From: a virus
IMG/VR virus record: IMGVR_UViG_3300044991_001407
Span: 31,038-95,037 of that record
Reading direction: 5' to 3' (one strand)
Length of the DNA stretch: 64,000 nucleotides
A program made the position numbers and the translations under genes. Positions 32,190-63,601 of this stretch are shown here, piece after piece; position 1 is the stretch's first letter, and the number at the start of each line of letters is the position of its first letter. Under the pieces are notes generated by a model that was not told the DNA's origin, did no database searches, and saw nothing but the letters and a program-made list of their open reading frames with translations.

Positions 32190-32432
32190 ATGGAAGCTGT
32201 AACTGTTGCTCTAATTGCTGCTGTCGGGGGAATCCTGGTAGCTTTGGTACAAAAGGGAAGAATAGAAAACAAAAACGATCATGGCGTAGTCGCTTCTTTG
32301 CTAAGAGATCTTCATAGTGATGTTGAGGTTGTAGAAAGCAAACTTGACAAACACATTGAATCACACAACCCAAAACAAGAAACAAAGCCAGTAACAACTA
32401 AAGTCGTTAAAAAAGTATCAACTAAAAAATAA
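32190..32432 (+). CDS. Small membrane-anchored coiled-coil protein
   Basis: The 80 residues are an N-terminal TM helix (VTVALIAAVGGILVALVQKG), then an amphipathic region (SLLRDLHSDVEVVESKLDKH) and a Lys-rich end. The layout matches DUF2746-type small membrane proteins found in actinophages, sometimes called holin-like. It is the last gene before a terminator. Confidence 0.55.
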   Translation: MEAVTVALIAAVGGILVALVQKGRIENKNDHGVVASLLRDLHSDVEVVESKLDKHIESHNPKQETKPVTTKVVKKVSTKK

Positions 32433-32438
32433 ATTTAA

Positions 32439-32506
32439 ACAGGCATCTTCAGGTTTGTAGTATTCCGAAAGGTTATTATAAATGTGTGAGGATGCCTGTT
32501 TTTTAT
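32439..32506 (+). terminator. Probable terminator with long loop
   Basis: A 10-bp stem AACAGGCATC (32439-32448) / GATGCCTGTT (32491-32500) encloses 42 bases and is followed by TTTTATTTTT. It stands just past the membrane-protein stop and before a new gene with its own leader. The large loop is unusual for an intrinsic terminator and might fold further. Confidence 0.6.
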
Positions 32507-32583
32507 TTTTAAAATAATCACTTATCCCGTTGATTTCCTTTTCTAATAATGATACGCTCTTCTCACCTAGAGAAAGGCTATAT

Positions 32584-35830: not shown

Positions 35831-35902
35831 GCCCCTTTAGCTCAGCGGTAGAGCACTTCACTTGTAATGAAGCGGTCCTCGGTTCAAGTCCGAGAGGGGG
35901 CT
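35831..35902 (+). tRNA. tRNA-Thr (anticodon TGT)
   Basis: A complete cloverleaf is visible. The acceptor stem GCCCCTT / AGGGGGC has one G-U pair, the D-arm is GCTCAGCGGTAGAGC, and the anticodon stem CTTCA / TGAAG encloses CTTGTAA. The anticodon TGT is at 35863-35865, and the T-arm contains GGTTCAAGTCC. The CCA is not encoded. It reads ACA codons, frequent in this AT-rich genome. Confidence 0.95.
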
Positions 35903-35923
35903 CTAAAAAAGGAGCAATGCAAT

Positions 35924-36658: not shown

Positions 36659-36734
36659 TGGCGAGTAGCTCAGTTGGCAGAGCAAGGGACTGTTAATCCC
36701 TGGGTCGTAGGTTCAAGCCCTACCTCGCCAGCCA
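36659..36734 (+). tRNA. tRNA-Asn (anticodon GTT), CCA encoded
   Basis: The acceptor stem TGGCGAG / CTCGCCA is perfect, the anticodon stem AGGGA / TCCCT holds CTGTTAA (anticodon 36692-36694), and the T-arm has GGTTCAAGCCC. The discriminator is G36731 and CCA follows at 36732-36734. The final A of CCA is the A of the next gene's ATG, a one-base overlap between a tRNA and a protein gene. Confidence 0.95.
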
Positions 36735-38582: not shown

Positions 38583-38913
38583 ATTCTCCCGCATTTTAAA
38601 CCAACTCCCGCCCATTTCCCGCCCACGCCATTTTTTAGAAAAATTGAGTATATATTCCAAGAGTGTTATGCATCTCTCAGGAGGGGTGGGCGAACCTATG
38701 TTCGGTAGGGTCAATGGGGTCTAGTCCGAAATTGGTCATTATGCGGATTTTTTCTTGGTCATTATGCGGATTTTTTTTCCGTCATTATCTAAGCCTTATT
38801 CCATAAGGGTTTTATAGGATTGGGTTATTCGTTGGGTGCTTGAATTGGTTAGCCATTGAACTATGCTTTAGTTATCGGGATGAACGAACGATTTCCGATA
38901 GGAGATAAGGAAC
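38583..38913. other. Gene-free leader with tandem repeats
   Basis: No supported reading frame. The interval has C-rich TTTCCCGCCCA sequence, a 23-base tandem repeat (listed separately), ATAAGGGTTTTAT (38803-38815), which recurs at 43107-43119, and the ribosome site of the gene at 38914. It looks like a control or initiation region rather than empty spacer. Confidence 0.5.
38732..38788. repeat. 23-bp iteron-like tandem repeat, 2.5 copies
   Basis: TTGGTCATTATGCGGATTTT begins at 38732 and again at 38755; each copy ends in a T-run. A degenerate third copy keeps GTCATTAT at 38781-38788, in register with the 23-base period. About two helical turns per unit would place bound proteins on the same DNA face, as for replication iterons or operators. 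Confidence 0.7.
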
Positions 38914-39862: not shown

Positions 39863-40133
39863 ACACCATGCCCACCATAGACGGTACACTCCGTATCTTT
39901 AGTGAATGTTTTTATGATGCTTTTACATGAGTGTAAGTTTACAAGAAAGGAACTTACATCCATGTAAGTTTTCAGGCGGGTGGAGCTGCACACGCAGGTA
40001 GCAGACGCACCCGCCGAGGCATACATGGTACATGTACCATTTTTAGTACATAAATGTAATCGCAATGTTGCTTTATCGCAACAACAGTGTTACCAATTCA
40101 CAACAACAGTGTTGTGTTTATGCAACAGTGCAT
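39863..40133. other. Convergent intergenic region rich in palindromes
   Basis: It lies between two facing terminators and has no supported gene. It contains TGTAAGTTTACA (39932), a 9-bp inverted pair AACTTACAT / ATGTAAGTT (39951-39970), GGCGGGTG ... CACCCGCC, a perfect 16-bp palindrome ATGGTACATGTACCAT (40025-40040), and repeats of ACAACAGTG. TCTTTAGTGAATG here is also found just before the gene at 39477. Confidence 0.5.
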
Positions 40134-40135
40134 AC

Positions 40136-40165
40136 AAAAAAAATACGGGGCATCTCTGCCCCGTA
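40136..40165 (-). terminator. Terminator of the leftward gene at 40187-40606
   Basis: On the leftward strand the stem TACGGGGCA / TGCCCCGTA (40144-40165) has a GAGA loop and is followed by eight T residues. It sits 22 bases past the stop. Confidence 0.9.
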
Positions 40166-40186
40166 CCTTTTTGCTTTTTGTTTTGT

Positions 40187-40606
40187 TTACTTGCGATACA
40201 ACAAAACTTTGTAAGCGTCTGGGTTACTCTCATCACTTGCAAGTGTTGTACCATTTACGGCATATCGTGCATACCCAACATTTGCAAGCTTTGCATCAAA
40301 CTCTACAAGTGAGAGCATAATTGCAAGCACTGCCAACTCTGGGCGCATAACGCCTTTTTCATTTAGTTTTGACTTGCGAGCGCATACTTCATACTGCAAA
40401 ACACTTACGCCATGAGTGAGCGCATGCATGCGAGCATTGTCACCTAGTGGAAGTTTTGGCATGTCGTATGCCTTGTACATTGCAATTGCAAGTTCGGTAT
40501 GGTCTGCATACTGTCTTACCCTTGCTTTGCTTGCCTTTGTATTGTGCTTTGCCATCTTTGCAATGAGCGCACTAGCCCGTTGCTTTGGCGTTTGCTTTGT
40601 TGCCAT
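40187..40606 (-). CDS. Hypothetical basic protein, lone leftward gene
   Basis: The 139 residues start MATKQTPKQRASALIAKMAK; the ATG at 40606 follows AAAGGCAAGGAC, a leader also used at 42469. Helical segments are HTELAIAMYKAYDMPKLPLG, RMHALTHGVSVLQYEVCARK and RPELAVLAIMLSLVEFDA, ending SNPDAYKVLLYRK. The C-terminal part resembles the 146-residue protein at 38914. It is the only leftward gene between 38.2 and 44.2 kb and has its own terminator, suiting a regulator. Confidence 0.6.
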   Translation of the reverse strand: MATKQTPKQRASALIAKMAKHNTKASKARVRQYADHTELAIAMYKAYDMPKLPLGDNARMHALTHGVSVLQYEVCARKSKLNEKGVMRPELAVLAIMLSLVEFDAKLANVGYARYAVNGTTLASDESNPDAYKVLLYRK

Positions 40607-41106
40607 GTCCTTGCCTTTCTGTAAGTGTGCCCCGTTTGGCACTGATGTAAGACTACACCCAATATGAGAAAACAACTCAAAAATAGCGTTACAATTTGAT
40701 GACAATTTAGTTACAAAATAACCTAAAGAATGTCACAAAACTTACACCAAACCCAAACCCAAAAACTCACCAGACGCATCAGGAGCCTCTTACAGCCGTG
40801 TAAGATTACACGAAGAAAACTTTATGAGGGGCTTCCAGGGAACCTTCTGGGTGGGCGTAAGGTGCTTCGCTAACAACCTTACGCCCATGTAAGTTTACAC
40901 CGTTGAGACTTTATGTTTAGTGTACATTTTGTATGTAAGTTTACAGCTATGTAACTTTATGAGAATGTATTTAGGGGATAACTTACACAAGGTCTGGAAT
41001 AGGGTCAAATTAGCCCGAAATCTAATGCTTGCAATTGGGTTGGGCATGGGGTAGGGTTGAGCGTAGCGAAACAAGTCGCACCTAAACGAAAGGCAAAACT
41101 TACACC
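40607..41106. promoter_or_regulatory. 500-base spacer with three composite TGTAAG-TTTATG elements
   Basis: No supported gene. TGTAAG hexamers at 40799, 40888 and 40934 are each followed after exactly 16 bases by TTTATG (40821, 40910, 40956). The layout matches a -35/-10 pair with an unusual -35. A 9-base inverted pair GGGCGTAAGG / CCTTACGCCC lies between (about 40853-40886). The downstream gene starts at 41107. Confidence 0.5.
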
Positions 41107-41331
41107 ATGTCCTACCTAACCTGTAAGATTAGGAACCGCATAAATTACCGAGATGATCTACCGCATGAATATATGTTCATTGGTACAGATACAACCGAGA
41201 CACAACACGGGAAATATACGATCACTCAAATACACGCAACTTGTAAATATTGCGGGATACTGAACACCACGACACAAATTGAAGATAGCGAACATTCATA
41301 TTCATCAACTTTGGGCGAGACCCAAAACTAA
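41107..41331 (+). CDS. Hypothetical small protein with CxxC
   Basis: The 74 residues start MSYLTCKIRNRINYRDDLPH and include TITQIHATCKYCGILNTTTQ. With the first Cys, a zinc-binding knuckle is possible. The leader has AAAGGCAAAACTTACACC. No family recognised. Confidence 0.55.
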   Translation: MSYLTCKIRNRINYRDDLPHEYMFIGTDTTETQHGKYTITQIHATCKYCGILNTTTQIEDSEHSYSSTLGETQN

Positions 41332-41349
41332 CACGGGAGAAAACTTACA

Positions 41350-41613
41350 ATGAACACTTACGAAGTATCCTGGCAATTTGAGCAAGGCGATGCAGAATGG
41401 GCAGATAGTTATCTGTACTATGCCAATAGCGTTGAGGAACTAGGCAAAATTTTGCGCTCTATCAAAAATTCCAATTCAACATGGAATGGCAAGCACGATG
41501 AAGACGAACCTGACATGAGTGTAATTTTTGCACAAATTCTAGATGATGATCTAGATGACGCAGATGACCGAGACATTACAGATGAACTACCCGAAGATAT
41601 TCTTGCTGACTAA
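41350..41613 (+). CDS. Hypothetical acidic protein
   Basis: The 87 residues begin MNTYEVSWQFEQGDAEWADS and end in a strongly acidic stretch (LDDDLDDADDRDITDELPED). It could mimic nucleic acid by charge, but the N-terminal half looks like an ordinary alpha/beta fold. CTTACA precedes the start. Confidence 0.55.
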   Translation: MNTYEVSWQFEQGDAEWADSYLYYANSVEELGKILRSIKNSNSTWNGKHDEDEPDMSVIFAQILDDDLDDADDRDITDELPEDILAD

Positions 41614-41655
41614 AGTTACACAACCGCAAACTTACACGGAAAGGCAAATAGTGAT

Positions 41656-41865
41656 ATGAGAAAATATACCCCGCTTTTCAGAGAAGGTCAATGGAAGGAA
41701 ACCTTGAAAGAGAATTCATTTCTTATTTTCGTTATTATTCTTTGGATAAGTGCATTTGTTTCTGTGACTTTCCGAGAACCGAACACCAGTCGTTGTGAAA
41801 TCGCACCTAGTTACTGTGAAGATGTGTACGAAGAAGACTACTTTCATTACGAACCTAGAGGATAA
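41656..41865 (+). CDS. Single-TM protein
   Basis: The 69 residues have a soluble N-terminus (RKYTPLFREGQWKETLKENS), one TM helix (FLIFVIILWISAFVSVTFRE), then a segment with two Cys (SRCEIAPSYCEDVYEEDYF). GGAAAGGC precedes the start. Confidence 0.6.
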   Translation: MRKYTPLFREGQWKETLKENSFLIFVIILWISAFVSVTFREPNTSRCEIAPSYCEDVYEEDYFHYEPRG

Positions 41866-41897
41866 ACAATGAATTCTAAACTTACAGGAGTGTAATA

Positions 41898-41990
41898 ATG
41901 AACATACTAAAAATAATCTACGGTGTCCTTATTCTTTGGTCATGGATAATCTTGCCAGTAGCGTTAGCGTGGTATATGGAAAGAGAGTAA
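41898..41990 (+). CDS. 30-residue membrane microprotein
   Basis: The ATG at 41898 has AGGAG eight bases upstream. The product MNILKIIYGVLILWSWIILP, VALAWYMERE is one hydrophobic helix. It is the last gene before a terminator. Confidence 0.6.
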   Translation: MNILKIIYGVLILWSWIILPVALAWYMERE

Positions 41991-42011
41991 ACTTACAAGC
42001 AAGTAAGATAA

Positions 42012-42037
42012 GCCCCCGCCAAAAGCGGGGGTTTTTC
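42012..42037 (+). terminator. Rho-independent terminator
   Basis: The stem CCCCCGC (42013-42019) / GCGGGGG (42025-42031) is followed by TTTTTC. It closes the 41107-41990 group. Confidence 0.9.
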
Positions 42038-42468
42038 TTTGCCTGTCTAAACTTACACAGCTGTAAGTTTACAGGCAGGTGTAACTTTTATGCCCTGCAA
42101 AAGTTACACCTGTGTAAGTTTGCACCGTTGTAAGTTAAGATTTAGTACATGGTTGTAAGTTAACTGAACATATCTTTATGATGTGAGAAAACTAACACTT
42201 GTGTAAGAGAACACGCATGTACTTTATGGAGCCCGCAAACTAACGCACCTGTAAGTTAAGGAATAGGTTGTGTAAGTTATCAAAAGTTGCTGTAAGTTTA
42301 GGGAAAAGGGTATCTGTAACCAGACTGTAACATTCCCTCTGATATATCTCATATGGGCATTGAGTTTCCCGACATTGTTACAAAATGATTACCTTGTGTT
42401 TGTGTTTGGGTTCCGATATTGTTTCTCTTATCAAGCAATAACGCTTGGTACTAACGAAAGGCAAGGAA
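42038..42468. promoter_or_regulatory. Motif-rich spacer upstream of paralogue 1
   Basis: No supported gene. A 10-bp inverted pair TAAACTTACA / TGTAAGTTTA (42048-42071) is followed by many TGTAAG/TGTAAC half sites, TTATCAAAAG, a GATATATCTCATATGGG segment and the ribosome site GAAAGGCAAGGAA. The second half resembles the spacer before 43229. Confidence 0.5.
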
Positions 42469-42741
42469 ATGGAATTTGAAGTAATTGAAGAGTCAGCGAT
42501 GGAATTCGTTCCTCGTGGTCGTCAGAGTCTCGTTCCCCAGGAATTGGTGAACGCATTGCAGAAGTTGGGTAAGGGCAAGGCTCTTAAACTTACAGGCATG
42601 CAAGTTAACCCAACTGCCAAGACTTTCAAGACTGACAAGGCACGAATCAGTGCAACACTCCGCCAAGCCGCAAAACAGGCAAAGTGTGAGGTTCACATTC
42701 GCTGGAGCGTCAATGGCACTCCACAATTGGTAAAGAAGTAA
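42469..42741 (+). CDS. Small basic protein, paralogue 1
   Basis: The 90 residues read MEFEVIEESAMEFVPRGRQS, ALQKLGKGKALKLTGM, KTDKARISATLRQAAKQAKC and VHIRWSVNGTPQLVKK. The protein at 43229 has the same length and order. An acidic start followed by a conserved FVPRGR and a Lys/Arg-rich helix suggests a DNA-binding protein, perhaps for the surrounding palindromes; this is inference. The ATG at 42469 is preceded by AAAGGCAAGGAA. Confidence 0.65.
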   Translation: MEFEVIEESAMEFVPRGRQSLVPQELVNALQKLGKGKALKLTGMQVNPTAKTFKTDKARISATLRQAAKQAKCEVHIRWSVNGTPQLVKK

Positions 42742-42796
42742 TTCACCCCCGAATTACTTCCGTGTAAGTTACACTTAACTTACACGCCTGTAAGGG

Positions 42797-42825
42797 AGCG
42801 GTAGCCTTCGGGCTACCGCTTTCTT
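42797..42825 (+). terminator. Rho-independent terminator with TTCG tetraloop
   Basis: The 10-bp stem AGCGGTAGCC / GGCTACCGCT closed by TTCG (42807-42810) is followed by TTCTT. Confidence 0.9.
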
Positions 42826-43228
42826 ACGCTCTAGTAAACTTACATGAGCGTAAACTTACACGGAGCTTGAGGGCGGGTGTAAGTTTAGTGCACTCCTAAA
42901 CTTACACCCGCTGTAAGATTACACATATGTAAGCTAAGTTTAGTATGTTTATGTAAGTTTACAGTCATGTACTTTATGTAATCCAAATACCAATGTAAGT
43001 TTACACCGAACACCTTTATGGGCAGCCCCGTGTAAGTTTTCTGAATTGGCTTGTAAGTTATCAAAACCTTGATAAAGGTTAGATATATCACTAAAACCCA
43101 TATGCAATAAGGGTTTTATCGGGGTTAGGTAGTATCAATGGGTTAGGGCTTGGACTAATCTGAGTGTTGTCAAAGCAATACCGCAATGACAACCGCTTAG
43201 GCGGTCTAAACTTACAGGAGAGGTAATT
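42826..43228. promoter_or_regulatory. Motif-rich spacer upstream of paralogue 2
   Basis: No supported gene. It holds three exact palindromes (42912, 42952, 42994). The last two form composite elements with TTTATG after 15 bases (42973, 43015). Further on are TAAAACCC / GGGTTTTA (43092-43099, 43111-43118), the ATAAGGGTTTTAT segment shared with 38803, and CTTACAGGAGAGG as ribosome site. Confidence 0.5.
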
Positions 43229-43501
43229 ATGGACTTTGAGTTCATTGACGAAGGGGATATGGATTTCGTACCCCGTGGGCGTAGGTCATCCGTACCTGCC
43301 GAACTGGTGACAGCCATTGCCAAATTGGGCAAGGGCAAAGCCATCCGCGTGTCATCCATGAAGGTGGATGTCACCAAGCCAACCGCAAAGACCGACAAGG
43401 CTCGGGTCTCGGCAACCATCCGCCAAGCAGGCGCACAAGCAAAGACTAAGGTCACGATTGCTTGGTCGCTTGACGGGACACCACAGGTACTGCGTAAGTA
43501 A
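43229..43501 (+). CDS. Small basic protein, paralogue 2
   Basis: The 90 residues read MDFEFIDEGDMDFVPRGRRS, AIAKLGKGKAIRVSSM, KTDKARVSATIRQAGAQAKT and VTIAWSLDGTPQVLRK. Identical length and about half identical residues show duplication of the 42469 gene. Codons here end in C/G far more often than in paralogue 1, so the pair diverged in base composition or was acquired separately. Confidence 0.65.
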   Translation: MDFEFIDEGDMDFVPRGRRSSVPAELVTAIAKLGKGKAIRVSSMKVDVTKPTAKTDKARVSATIRQAGAQAKTKVTIAWSLDGTPQVLRK

Positions 43502-43524
43502 CCCCAAACTTACAGACCTGTAAG

Positions 43525-43556
43525 AGAAGCCCGCTGTTCGCAGCGGGCTTCTTTTA
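43525..43556 (+). terminator. Rho-independent terminator with TTCG tetraloop
   Basis: The 12-bp stem AGAAGCCCGCTG / CAGCGGGCTTCT with TTCG (43537-43540) is followed by TTTATC. Confidence 0.9.
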
Positions 43557-44265
43557 TCTTACCCTTGTGTAAGCTTACACACCAGTAAGTTATGGGCGGG
43601 TGTAATCTTACATTTTTGTAAGATTACACCCGTGTAAACTTACACCACTTCCTTATCTAATTGAGTATGTATTTTCTAATCCAAATCAGAACCTTTATCC
43701 TAATCCTATTTTCAATACTAACTTTATGGAAGCGTAAGGTTACAACCCTGTAAGATTACAGTCCTGTAAGCTTACACCGCTGGAGATAAATAAAAAGGTA
43801 AAGGCTTACCTATGCTTTTAGATAAACCTTTACCTTTATGAGGGGTCTTTTACCCAACTTATATTTTTGGGGATTACATCATTGTAATTTGTATCTAGTA
43901 CTAGAGTAGATACCTAACCTGTTGGTCACACCTAATCATTCCCCGATTTCAATTACAAATTCTTGGACATGATCTTTCACTAATATCCTTGTGATATATC
44001 ACACTAAAGTTTTGATGAGTATGTTCATTTAATTTTTGGGGAATATATACATTAATGTATTCAGAACCTTTATAGGGGGTCATATAGGGTCTCATTCTAT
44101 GTCGCATACAAAAATCCTAAGGAAATAGGGTATATTTCCCTTATTTTATATGGTTTTACTATAAAACACCTATGTATTTAATAGATTCTACACCTTTATT
44201 GAGCGCTTTTCACAACAATTTAGGTATACGGGTAGGTATACGGTATGCTATTCAAGGGCTAATCC
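43557..44265. other. Gene-free convergent region
   Basis: About 700 bases without a supported gene lie between rightward and leftward operons. It holds six exact TGTAA-NN-TTACA copies (43568-43776), a hairpin AAAGGTAAAGG / CCTTTACCTTT (43794-43837), GTATCTA / TAGATAC around CTAGTACTAG (43891-43913), GTGATATATCAC (43991-44002), two TTTTTGGGGA stretches, and a direct repeat TAGGTATACGG near 44221-44243. This could be an origin or a double terminator zone. Confidence 0.5.
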
Positions 44266-50236: not shown

Positions 50237-50623
50237 TTAGTTGTTCTCTTCTTTCTGTGTCATTACTTTAAATGCGAATACAAATGCTTCAAAATCCTTG
50301 ATTTCATCATCTGTTAATGAACATTGATCTCCTTCATCATCTGTTTTTGTATAAATAACATCACCTGAAATGAAATCATCAATTCCTTTTAGGCTGTCTC
50401 TTTTCTTGAGAATATTCCAATACCACCACTTACTAGCAAGTTCATTCATTCCCTTATTGAATTTACCTTCTTCATTAACATAATAACCAGTGCTATTGCT
50501 AGAGTCAATCGTAACCCATTCAATATAGCCATCTACCTTTTCTTGTAGTTCTTTAAGTGTCATTTTTGTATCTGTATAAATCATTTCTATTTCATTATTT
50601 TCTTTAATTAGTATTGCTTTCAT
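50237..50623 (-). CDS. Hypothetical acidic protein below the RNA block
   Basis: The 128 residues begin MKAILIKENNEIEMIYTDTK and include DGYIEWVTIDSSNSTGYYVN and SLTDDEIKDFEAFVFAFKVM. It is the first protein gene downstream of the structured RNA block and tRNA-Arg. AGGAGACTCATAAAG precedes the ATG. Confidence 0.55.
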   Translation of the reverse strand: MKAILIKENNEIEMIYTDTKMTLKELQEKVDGYIEWVTIDSSNSTGYYVNEEGKFNKGMNELASKWWYWNILKKRDSLKGIDDFISGDVIYTKTDDEGDQCSLTDDEIKDFEAFVFAFKVMTQKEENN

Positions 50624-50662
50624 CTTTATGAGTCTCCTCTACTTGTGTTTATATATGACAAA

Positions 50663-50793
50663 AAGAGTTAAGCAGAAAACATTTATGAAGTTTCAATGAA
50701 CAACCTACTCCATATTTAACATTTCCTAATCAACAAAGGACAGGCAAATGCATATTTTCCTTAACCCGAAAGGTTGGGCTTAGCTTAACTCTT
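50663..50793 (-). ncRNA. Structured RNA unit A (131 nt)
   Basis: The interval is closed by a perfect 11-bp stem, leftward strand AAGAGTTAAGC (50793-50783) with GCTTAACTCTT (50673-50663). Inside are AACC-cgaaa-GGTT and other small hairpins. It starts two bases after the 3' end of tRNA-Arg. It contains no supported reading frame. Confidence 0.5.
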
Positions 50794-50795
50794 AG

Positions 50796-50869
50796 CGTAT
50801 CCGACAGGACTTGAACCTATAACCTAAACATTAGAAGTGTTTTGCTCTATCCAATTGAGCTACGGATAC
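50796..50869 (-). tRNA. tRNA-Arg (anticodon TCT)
   Basis: On the leftward strand: acceptor GTATCCG / CGGATAC, D-arm GCTCAATTGGATAGAGC, anticodon stem AAACA / TGTTT around CTTCTAA (anticodon TCT), and T-arm with GGTTCAAGTCC. The discriminator is G and CCA is not encoded. It reads AGA. It is embedded in a run of other structured units. Confidence 0.95.
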
Positions 50870-50878
50870 ATAAACATA

Positions 50879-50937
50879 TTGGTTAAACTCGGCTTTTGCA
50901 TATGTTAGACAAATAGTTTTTTCCAGGCTTTAACCAA
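50879..50937 (-). ncRNA. Structured RNA unit B (59 nt)
   Basis: Closed by a perfect 9-bp stem TTGGTTAAA / TTTAACCAA (50879-50887 and 50929-50937). The interior has no obvious long helix. It lies nine bases upstream of tRNA-Arg in transcription direction and five bases after unit C. Confidence 0.4.
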
Positions 50938-50942
50938 ACCTG

Positions 50943-51028
50943 TTTTTAATATCAGAGTATAATCAGATATGAGGATTATACATACTATTACAATGACCAA
51001 AAAGAATAGCATTTCCTGATATTAAAAA
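50943..51028 (-). ncRNA. Structured RNA unit C: three-way junction (86 nt)
   Basis: The closing stem is 13 bp, TTTTTAATATCAG / CTGATATTAAAAA (50943-50955, 51016-51028). Two arms follow: 8 bp at 50957-50964 / 50974-50981, and 8 bp at 50982-50989 / 51005-51012. The second arm has one non-Watson-Crick position, which is A-C on the rightward strand but G-U on the leftward strand, indicating a leftward RNA. Confidence 0.65.
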
Positions 51029-51029
51029 A

Positions 51030-51117
51030 TTGGTATTAGAATATAACCTTATACAAAGGCTATACCAGAATAGTAAAACCGTTCCCACTAGAATTACTAT
51101 TCTGTTTCTAATACCAA
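51030..51117 (-). ncRNA. Structured RNA unit D: three-way junction (88 nt)
   Basis: The closing stem is 12 bp, TTGGTATTAGAA / TTCTAATACCAA (51030-51041, 51106-51117). Arms are 11 bp CAGAATAGTAA / TTACTATTCTG (51066-51076, 51094-51104) and 8 bp at 51043-51050 / 51056-51063. The one irregular pair in the 8-bp arm is again G-U only on the leftward strand. One base separates it from unit C, which has the same architecture. Confidence 0.65.
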
Positions 51118-51124
51118 AACTTAA

Positions 51125-51190
51125 GTTGATGTTCCTTCAGCGTAAAAGATCAGATAATCTTTTGCATAAAGGAACACCAACAATCTTTTA
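51125..51190 (-). ncRNA. Structured RNA unit E with a copy at 56.6 kb
   Basis: The outer 13-bp stem GTTGATGTTCCTT / AAGGAACACCAAC (51125-51137, 51169-51181) has one pair that is G-U on the leftward strand, and the inner 7-bp stem is AAAAGAT / ATCTTTT (51144-51150, 51157-51163). The part from 51141 to 51190 is largely repeated at 56612-56660. It begins 28 bases after the stop of the gene at 51218. Confidence 0.6.
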
Positions 51191-51217
51191 ACCAATCTAT
51201 ACTAAAATTGAGTATAT

Positions 51218-51688
51218 TCATTCCCAACTTATAGTTGCAGTTTTAGTCAATAGCTCTTCACCATCAAAATACCATTGCCATAAGCTATTGTCTTCACCGC
51301 TCCAATTTATATAGCTTCCAGTTTTTATAAACTTAGCGATTGATTGAAAGAAATACTCTTCAGAGCCAATCTTGGAACTATAACCTAGACCAACTAAATC
51401 GCCATTGTCATTGTATTTAATATTTTCAAACCCAAGTTCATGCAAGATATCTTCCATATTCTTACATGTTTCTGGATAATTAGCATCCATCCAACTAAAC
51501 CATTTAGCTGGATGATAATTCATACCTTCAGGTCTTGGTGAATCGTAACTTACACCTTCAGAGTTCCAACCACCACCACTTTTTAGGTCATCCCTATCAT
51601 TAAGCTTACACATTGCTTCATAGCAATCCACAAACTTATCTTTAGGAATAAAGATATTTACTTCTGTTGCATCTACATAGTATCCCAT
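51218..51688 (-). CDS. Conserved hypothetical phage protein
   Basis: The 156 residues start MGYYVDATEVNIFIPKDKFV and include GWNSEGVSYDSPRPEGMNYH and LHELGFENIKYNDNGDLVGL. 'MGYYxDxxxxxFxIxxxxxxxA' proteins occur in many phages, usually with unknown function. The 3' end leads into the structured RNA block. Confidence 0.6.
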   Translation of the reverse strand: MGYYVDATEVNIFIPKDKFVDCYEAMCKLNDRDDLKSGGGWNSEGVSYDSPRPEGMNYHPAKWFSWMDANYPETCKNMEDILHELGFENIKYNDNGDLVGLGYSSKIGSEEYFFQSIAKFIKTGSYINWSGEDNSLWQWYFDGEELLTKTATISWE

Positions 51689-56611: not shown

Positions 56612-56660
56612 GTAAAACATCAGATAATCGTTTATATAATGAAACACCAACAATCTTTTA
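56612..56660 (-). repeat. Second copy of the unit E RNA element (5' leader)
   Basis: On the leftward strand, TAAAAGATTGTTGGTGTT and GATTATCTGAT are identical to unit E (51190-51141), with changes in the segments between. The outer stem of unit E is not kept, so sequence, not just pairing, is conserved. It sits 18 bases before the start codon at 56594. Confidence 0.7.
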
Positions 56661-56689
56661 CTCAATTTATTAGCGAATTTTAATATACG

Positions 56690-63487: not shown

Positions 63488-63601
63488 CCGCTTGAATATT
63501 ATTATTTATATTAAGAATTAGCTAATGAATCACCAAGCATCTTTTAGCCAATATTTTACCAAATTTTAATATGTATTTCATGACCAACTAGGGTCATTTC
63601 A

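Follow-up and report, generated by a model that had tools for sequence, protein, structure and literature searches.

In bacteriophage T4, two small stable non-tRNA RNAs, RNA C and RNA D, lie within the transcript of the tRNA cluster and are co-processed with it. To our knowledge few phage non-coding RNAs have been described, and for RNA C and RNA D we know of no function. Phages and prophages also carry GOLLD and ROOL, RNAs located near tRNA islands that form cages and whose function is not known (PMC12286853). Phage-encoded regulatory small RNAs have been characterised in cultured phage-host systems (PMC12197685), and phages such as PhiTE can encode mimics of a type III toxin-antitoxin RNA (PMC3475682).

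The locus analysed here is a row of folded RNA units with a tRNA-Arg, on the minus strand of the window, by which we mean the whole stretch of 64,000 nucleotides (W; positions 31,038-95,037 of a 95 kb IMG/VR virus record). The portal protein shares 44-48% identity with its counterparts in Streptomyces phages, for example Wakanda, Faust and Blueeyedbeauty. This suggests that the phage group is distantly related to them and that the host is likely to be actinobacterial. Among isolate phages the matches were limited to the tRNA, and no close DNA relative was found. Among the array RNAs only the tRNA reached the Rfam gathering threshold, and at E 10 the tRNA was joined by chance matches only, GOLLD and ROOL being absent. 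None of the units is in Rfam, and the proposal made from the letters alone, that several structured RNAs of no known family surround the tRNA, is upheld. A literature search turned up GOLLD and ROOL and the review of phage small RNAs, and no description of these RNAs.

Layout and folding of the array

The array lies in the gap between two protein genes (50,624-51,217), its units of 57-131 nt following one another almost end to end in the transcript order E-D-C-B-tRNA-Arg-A (Table 1). Within the gap the only open reading frames are chance ones of 41 aa on the minus strand and 53 aa on the plus strand, as expected from the earlier statement that no protein gene fits, and the relatives of the array conserve RNA pairing rather than a reading frame. 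ARAGORN and Rfam both call the tRNA-Arg where it had been placed. Two further tRNAs of the window, tRNA-Thr (35831-35903) and tRNA-Asn (36659-36734), stand singly between plus-strand genes with nearly no spacer and are without such units.

Table 1. Positions of the array features, and order of units in related phages (W, window; positions refer to W unless a locus is named)
Feature	Position	Strand	Structure, basis or order
156-aa gene	ends at 51,218		flanks array
Promoter-like repeat overlapping E, core ATTGGYTAAAAGATTGTTGGTGTTTC	51142-51216	minus	putative promoter
Other gene-gap copies of the promoter-like element	56612-56686; 63518-63572		
Unit E	51125-51181	minus	single long hairpin: 15-bp outer stem, inner stem, 4-nt loop
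Unit D	51030-51117	minus	three-way junction: 10-bp terminal stem and two hairpins
Unit C	50943-51028	minus	three-way junction: 13-bp terminal stem and two hairpins
Unit B, redefined	~50873-50942	minus	comparison; two conserved hairpins
B hairpins	50924-50942; 50873-50906	minus	
B complementary loops	50931-50935; 50881-50885	minus	GGUUA with UAACC
tRNA-Arg, anticodon TCT (UCU)	50795-50869	minus	ARAGORN, Rfam RF00005; CCA not encoded
Unit A	50663-50793	minus	covariation; independent homologues L024, L015
Invariant loop CCUUUC of A	50768-50773	minus	complementary to Shine-Dalgarno GAAAGG
Conserved core of A, UAAGNNAAAUAUGC	50750-50763	minus	alignment
U-rich tail, 3' end of A, terminator-like	50658-50666	minus	sequence
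DUF3846 gene	starts at 50,623		flanks array
A2	L028:3927-4009; L033:8146-8228; L019:3221-3317; L021:10566-10672		
Order in W, L008			E-D-C-B-tRNA-A
Order in L009, L043			D-C-B-tRNA-A
Order in L039			D-tRNA-A
Order in L018, L020, L022, L023			C-B-tRNA-(spacer or extra unit)-A
Order in L014			B-tRNA-plain terminator
Order in L028, L033			tRNA-A2-A
Order in L019, L021			tRNA-A2
Order in L034			different stem-closed unit-tRNA-A, unit replacing B
Order in L032			further stem-closed unit-tRNA-A, unit replacing B
Order in L015			long hairpin-tRNA; A elsewhere
Order in L024			A without adjacent tRNA

Each unit was folded against 200 dinucleotide shuffles. The z-scores of E (-7.3), D (-8.1), C (-5.0) and A (-3.2) agree with the folds described in the sequence-only reading, but B, there a piece of 59 nt, is a poor single fold (-1.0, with 31 of the 200 shuffles equally good). 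This weak score does not disprove B, because even the tRNA, whose identity as an RNA is certain, reaches only -2.3. The entire array of 578 nt scores -6.9, and no shuffle was as good. The terminal stems, put at 9-13 bp, have 10 pairs in D, 13 in C and 11 in A, and E has 15 continuous pairs. In a window-wide scan strong intergenic hairpins proved frequent, several of them terminator-like; fold energy alone is therefore no proof here, and we relied on comparison. In the relatives, too, the intergenic sequence is unusually strongly folded, with z between -1.7 and -10 and in most cases under -3, against a mean of -1.1 for random controls. On the plus strand, the hairpin at 32395-32525 is very strong (z -6.8); a U-run follows it, and it is probably a terminator.

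Comparison changes the outline of B. In place of the 59-nt unit with a terminal stem it gives a slightly larger unit of two hairpins with complementary loops. The short spacings reported between units hold for A, the tRNA, C, D and E, and the ends of B shift to 0 nt from C and 3 nt from the tRNA. The loops are always complementary across phages (GGUUAAA/UUUAACC), and each hairpin has one double-changed pair. Judged by the aligned loops, what had been taken for the terminal stem of B is more probably a contact between the loops or a pseudoknot; this putative contact would compete with part of hairpin 1. B is kept in nine phages; one of them, the distant L014, retains nothing else of the array but the tRNA.

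The first loop of C contains the invariant UUUUUGGUCAUU, and the first hairpin of D is tipped by the invariant UCUAGUGGGAACGG. C was found in eight viral contigs besides the window and has a single pair in which both sides have changed. D is present in W, L008, L009, L043 and L039, where every change retains pairing, mainly via G-U, and at most one pair is double-changed. Both are 99-100% paired, but shuffles do nearly as well, since the sequences hardly vary. More generally B, C and D are 97-100% paired with few changes, and shuffles are often as high, the relatives being very alike. As far as the alignments go, B, C and D are too conserved and covariation is decisive for A alone. Of the 36 stretches of viral contigs that contain the 14-mer of the D loop, only those from this locus adopt the D fold; the others are chance. 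A tandem repeat of the window (TTGGTCATTATGCGGATTTTTTC, 38732-38788) has the 9-mer TTGGTCATT in common with the invariant loop of C, which is not clearly above chance. We rejected the tandem repeat (38732-38763) as a target of that loop (UUGGUCAUU), as the 9-mer count is weak and is matched by 4 of 100 shuffles.

E is a true palindrome, yet it is the least secure of the units as an RNA. It was found in W and L008 only, and the single stem change between them is compensated (TTCC/GGAA to TTTC/GAAA). A promoter-like element (ATTGGYTAAAAGATNNTTGGTGNTTCATTA) recurs in gene gaps of the window and at the corresponding places in the relatives, and the 5' half of E and the sequence upstream belong to it. 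The strong fold of E stands, but the unit overlaps this repeat and may not be transcribed whole. There is, we consider, an even chance that E is a promoter or regulator binding site, a palindrome that acts as DNA and drives the array rather than an RNA unit. Its 5' half and the 30 nt upstream recur before other genes of this phage and its relatives without the long palindrome, which favours the DNA site; against it stand the compensated change and the failure to detect a consensus sigma-70 promoter on the minus strand. We take the repeat to be a phage promoter or regulator site; E would then mark the start of the transcript and not a processed RNA. Elsewhere in the window, 17 of the 20 palindromes TTACA-N3to6-TGTAA fall within 4 kb (39923-43874), mostly of small ORFs. 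Half-sites (TGTAAG/CTTACA) number 52 in these 3.9 kb and 39 in the other 60 kb, and the stretch resembles a cluster of sites for an operator, for replication or for partition.

Unit A and its invariant loop

The consensus of A has 52 pairs in an alignment of 13 distinct sequences and consists of a terminal stem P1, a stem P2 with the invariant loop CCUUUC, and stems P3, P4 and P5; UAAG and AAAUAUGC are likewise invariant. It had been suggested that real stems would be kept by compensatory changes in related phages and would be open to a covariance-model search. A bears out the former very strongly: in 34 of the 52 pairs both sides have changed with the pair preserved, 97.5% of cells pair, this falls to 44-48% when the structure is slid along the alignment, and none of 500 shuffles reaches any of five measures. 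P1 has 11 bp in W and about 26 bp in some relatives, and its sequence varies freely while complementarity is kept. A covariance model built without L024 and L015 recovers both among the related viral contigs (50 bits, E ~1e-10 to 1e-9, and 43 bits, E ~1e-8). Judged by its alignment, A is a real RNA and a new structured RNA family.

The A model scores 107-163 bits on the minus strand of the 13 sequences and at most about 52 bits on the opposite strand, and A-D combined have 102 G-U against 3 A-C cells. The folded RNA is therefore the minus strand. The motif CCTTTCNGNNTAAGNNAAATATGC is present in 15 viral contigs, and there is never more than one A locus per record. Among bacterial genomes the motif has four matches, none of which passes the A model; these thus give no host or prophage evidence. 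Placed beside the tRNA from the letters alone, A does lie there in W, but it is not tied to a tRNA: in L024 and L015 it stands away from tRNAs, after protein genes, and therefore needs no tRNA-based processing. Its last part also resembles an intrinsic terminator, and the 3' end may thus be formed without processing. By eye we also noticed A2, a smaller unit that is closed by a terminal stem and has a CCUUUC-loop hairpin in common with A; under the A model it reaches only E ~1, and we tentatively regard it as a simpler cousin of A.

CCUUUC is invariant in the 13 sequences and in L024 and L015, where it reads CUCCUUUC, and it matches the 16S rRNA end that bears the anti-Shine-Dalgarno sequence. 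This loop is the one concrete lead to the action of A. Of 286 ORFs examined in these phages, 29 have GAAAGG upstream, compared with 1 in background; these sites are possible targets of the A loop rather than a demonstration of its action. We consider the likeliest action of A to be that of a trans-acting small RNA whose loop would pair with the Shine-Dalgarno sequence of mRNAs, copying the 16S rRNA end; that last step is speculative and rather unlikely, and its basis is one 6-nt motif. A wider version, in which interchangeable small RNAs, each folded on its own, form a phage 'RNA island', a cassette around the tRNA whose members all act on the host in trans, with A diverting or blocking translation by its anti-Shine-Dalgarno copy, is more doubtful still; if true, it would be an RNA counterpart of the variable clusters of anti-host protein genes.

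Gain and loss of units among related phages

Relatives were collected through neighbouring proteins and through the A motif (15 contigs), the B motif (9) and the C motif (8), giving about 15 distinct phage loci. Compared with W, L039 is missing C and B together, the gap opening exactly where C begins and closing exactly where B ends. The gap is direct evidence for the units first drawn from the letters, and the relatives uphold those boundaries by losing whole units. The folded units are evolutionary modules that are lost or gained whole. In L014 a plain hairpin and U run occupy the place of A. Other stem-closed units, unlike A-E, lie by the same tRNA-Arg at L034:6766-6849, L015:14750-14812, L022:10846-10947 and just upstream of the tRNA in L032.

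We lean slightly towards a modular non-coding RNA locus, in which the minus strand is transcribed through independently folding RNAs and the tRNA-Arg, most likely as one precursor. Co-transcription is suggested by the spacing of 0-9 nt, which leaves no room for separate promoters. The row of units and the tRNA would be transcribed as a single minus-strand precursor that terminates at the U-run after the terminal stem of A. RNase P and RNase Z would free the tRNA, by itself splitting the row in two, and the remaining units would be compact stem-closed RNAs with exonuclease-resistant ends, possibly trimmed by RNase III. Such a cutting of the row into discrete, stable RNAs is plausible.

The units could instead be cis elements of one untranslated region and not independent RNAs, A being an elaborate terminator or 3' end, and B and the others 5' leaders that aid folding or processing of the tRNA or insulate it. 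The U-run end of A, its replacement by a plain terminator in L014, its position after protein genes in L024 and L015, and the presence of B immediately before the tRNA in all nine aligned phages are consistent with this, but P2-P5 and the invariant loop motifs of A show conservation well in excess of the requirements of a terminator, and the tRNAs of L028, L033, L019 and L021 lack any upstream unit. We consider a purely cis role unlikely. A single large ornate RNA of the GOLLD/ROOL type, assembling whole with the tRNA in a linker, is a very unlikely alternative. The row, of roughly 530 nt, is densely folded. GOLLD and ROOL are found close to phage tRNAs, and the linkers of GOLLD may contain tRNAs (PMC12286853). 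However, no GOLLD or ROOL match appears even at E 10, units are gained and lost singly, A is alone in two phages, and an unsystematic look noticed no conserved pairing between units. Finally, small mobile palindromes of DNA, of the MITE or REP kind, gathered beside the tRNA, with terminal stems as inverted repeats, might account for long terminal inverted repeats and whole-unit presence or absence, but this is extremely improbable, since the stems vary freely with complementarity kept, the opposite of transposase-recognised ends, A occurs once per record, second copies of A-D are absent from the genome, the inner stems covary, the G-U bias indicates one-strand RNA, and no scattered copies that preserve the sequence of the terminal repeats were found.

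Comparison with known systems

The modular locus that we prefer lays out the gain, loss and replacement of single non-coding RNA units, traceable across relatives. A has a firm consensus structure, and its invariant loops point to the putative site of contact with a partner, so that function can be tested by loop mutation. Like the PhiTE mimic, the array could provide a phage RNA that counters a host defence; unlike it, the array does not repeat one RNA unit in tandem and has no ToxI-like Rfam match. The likeness to phage regulatory small RNAs lies in the C/U-rich loop of A, which may act in trans on ribosome-binding sites, and not in homology. With GOLLD and ROOL the array shares being phage-borne, structured, non-coding and beside a tRNA, though A also occurs away from tRNAs; they are single large RNAs with sequences of their own, whereas the array consists of several small separable units. 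Nearest by arrangement are RNA C and RNA D of T4, which belong to a different phage type; the array, known here from sequence, is modular and includes a larger, strongly covarying A. We therefore class the array RNAs as new families whose modular arrangement is itself new and is of a known kind, that of phage RNAs found near tRNAs.
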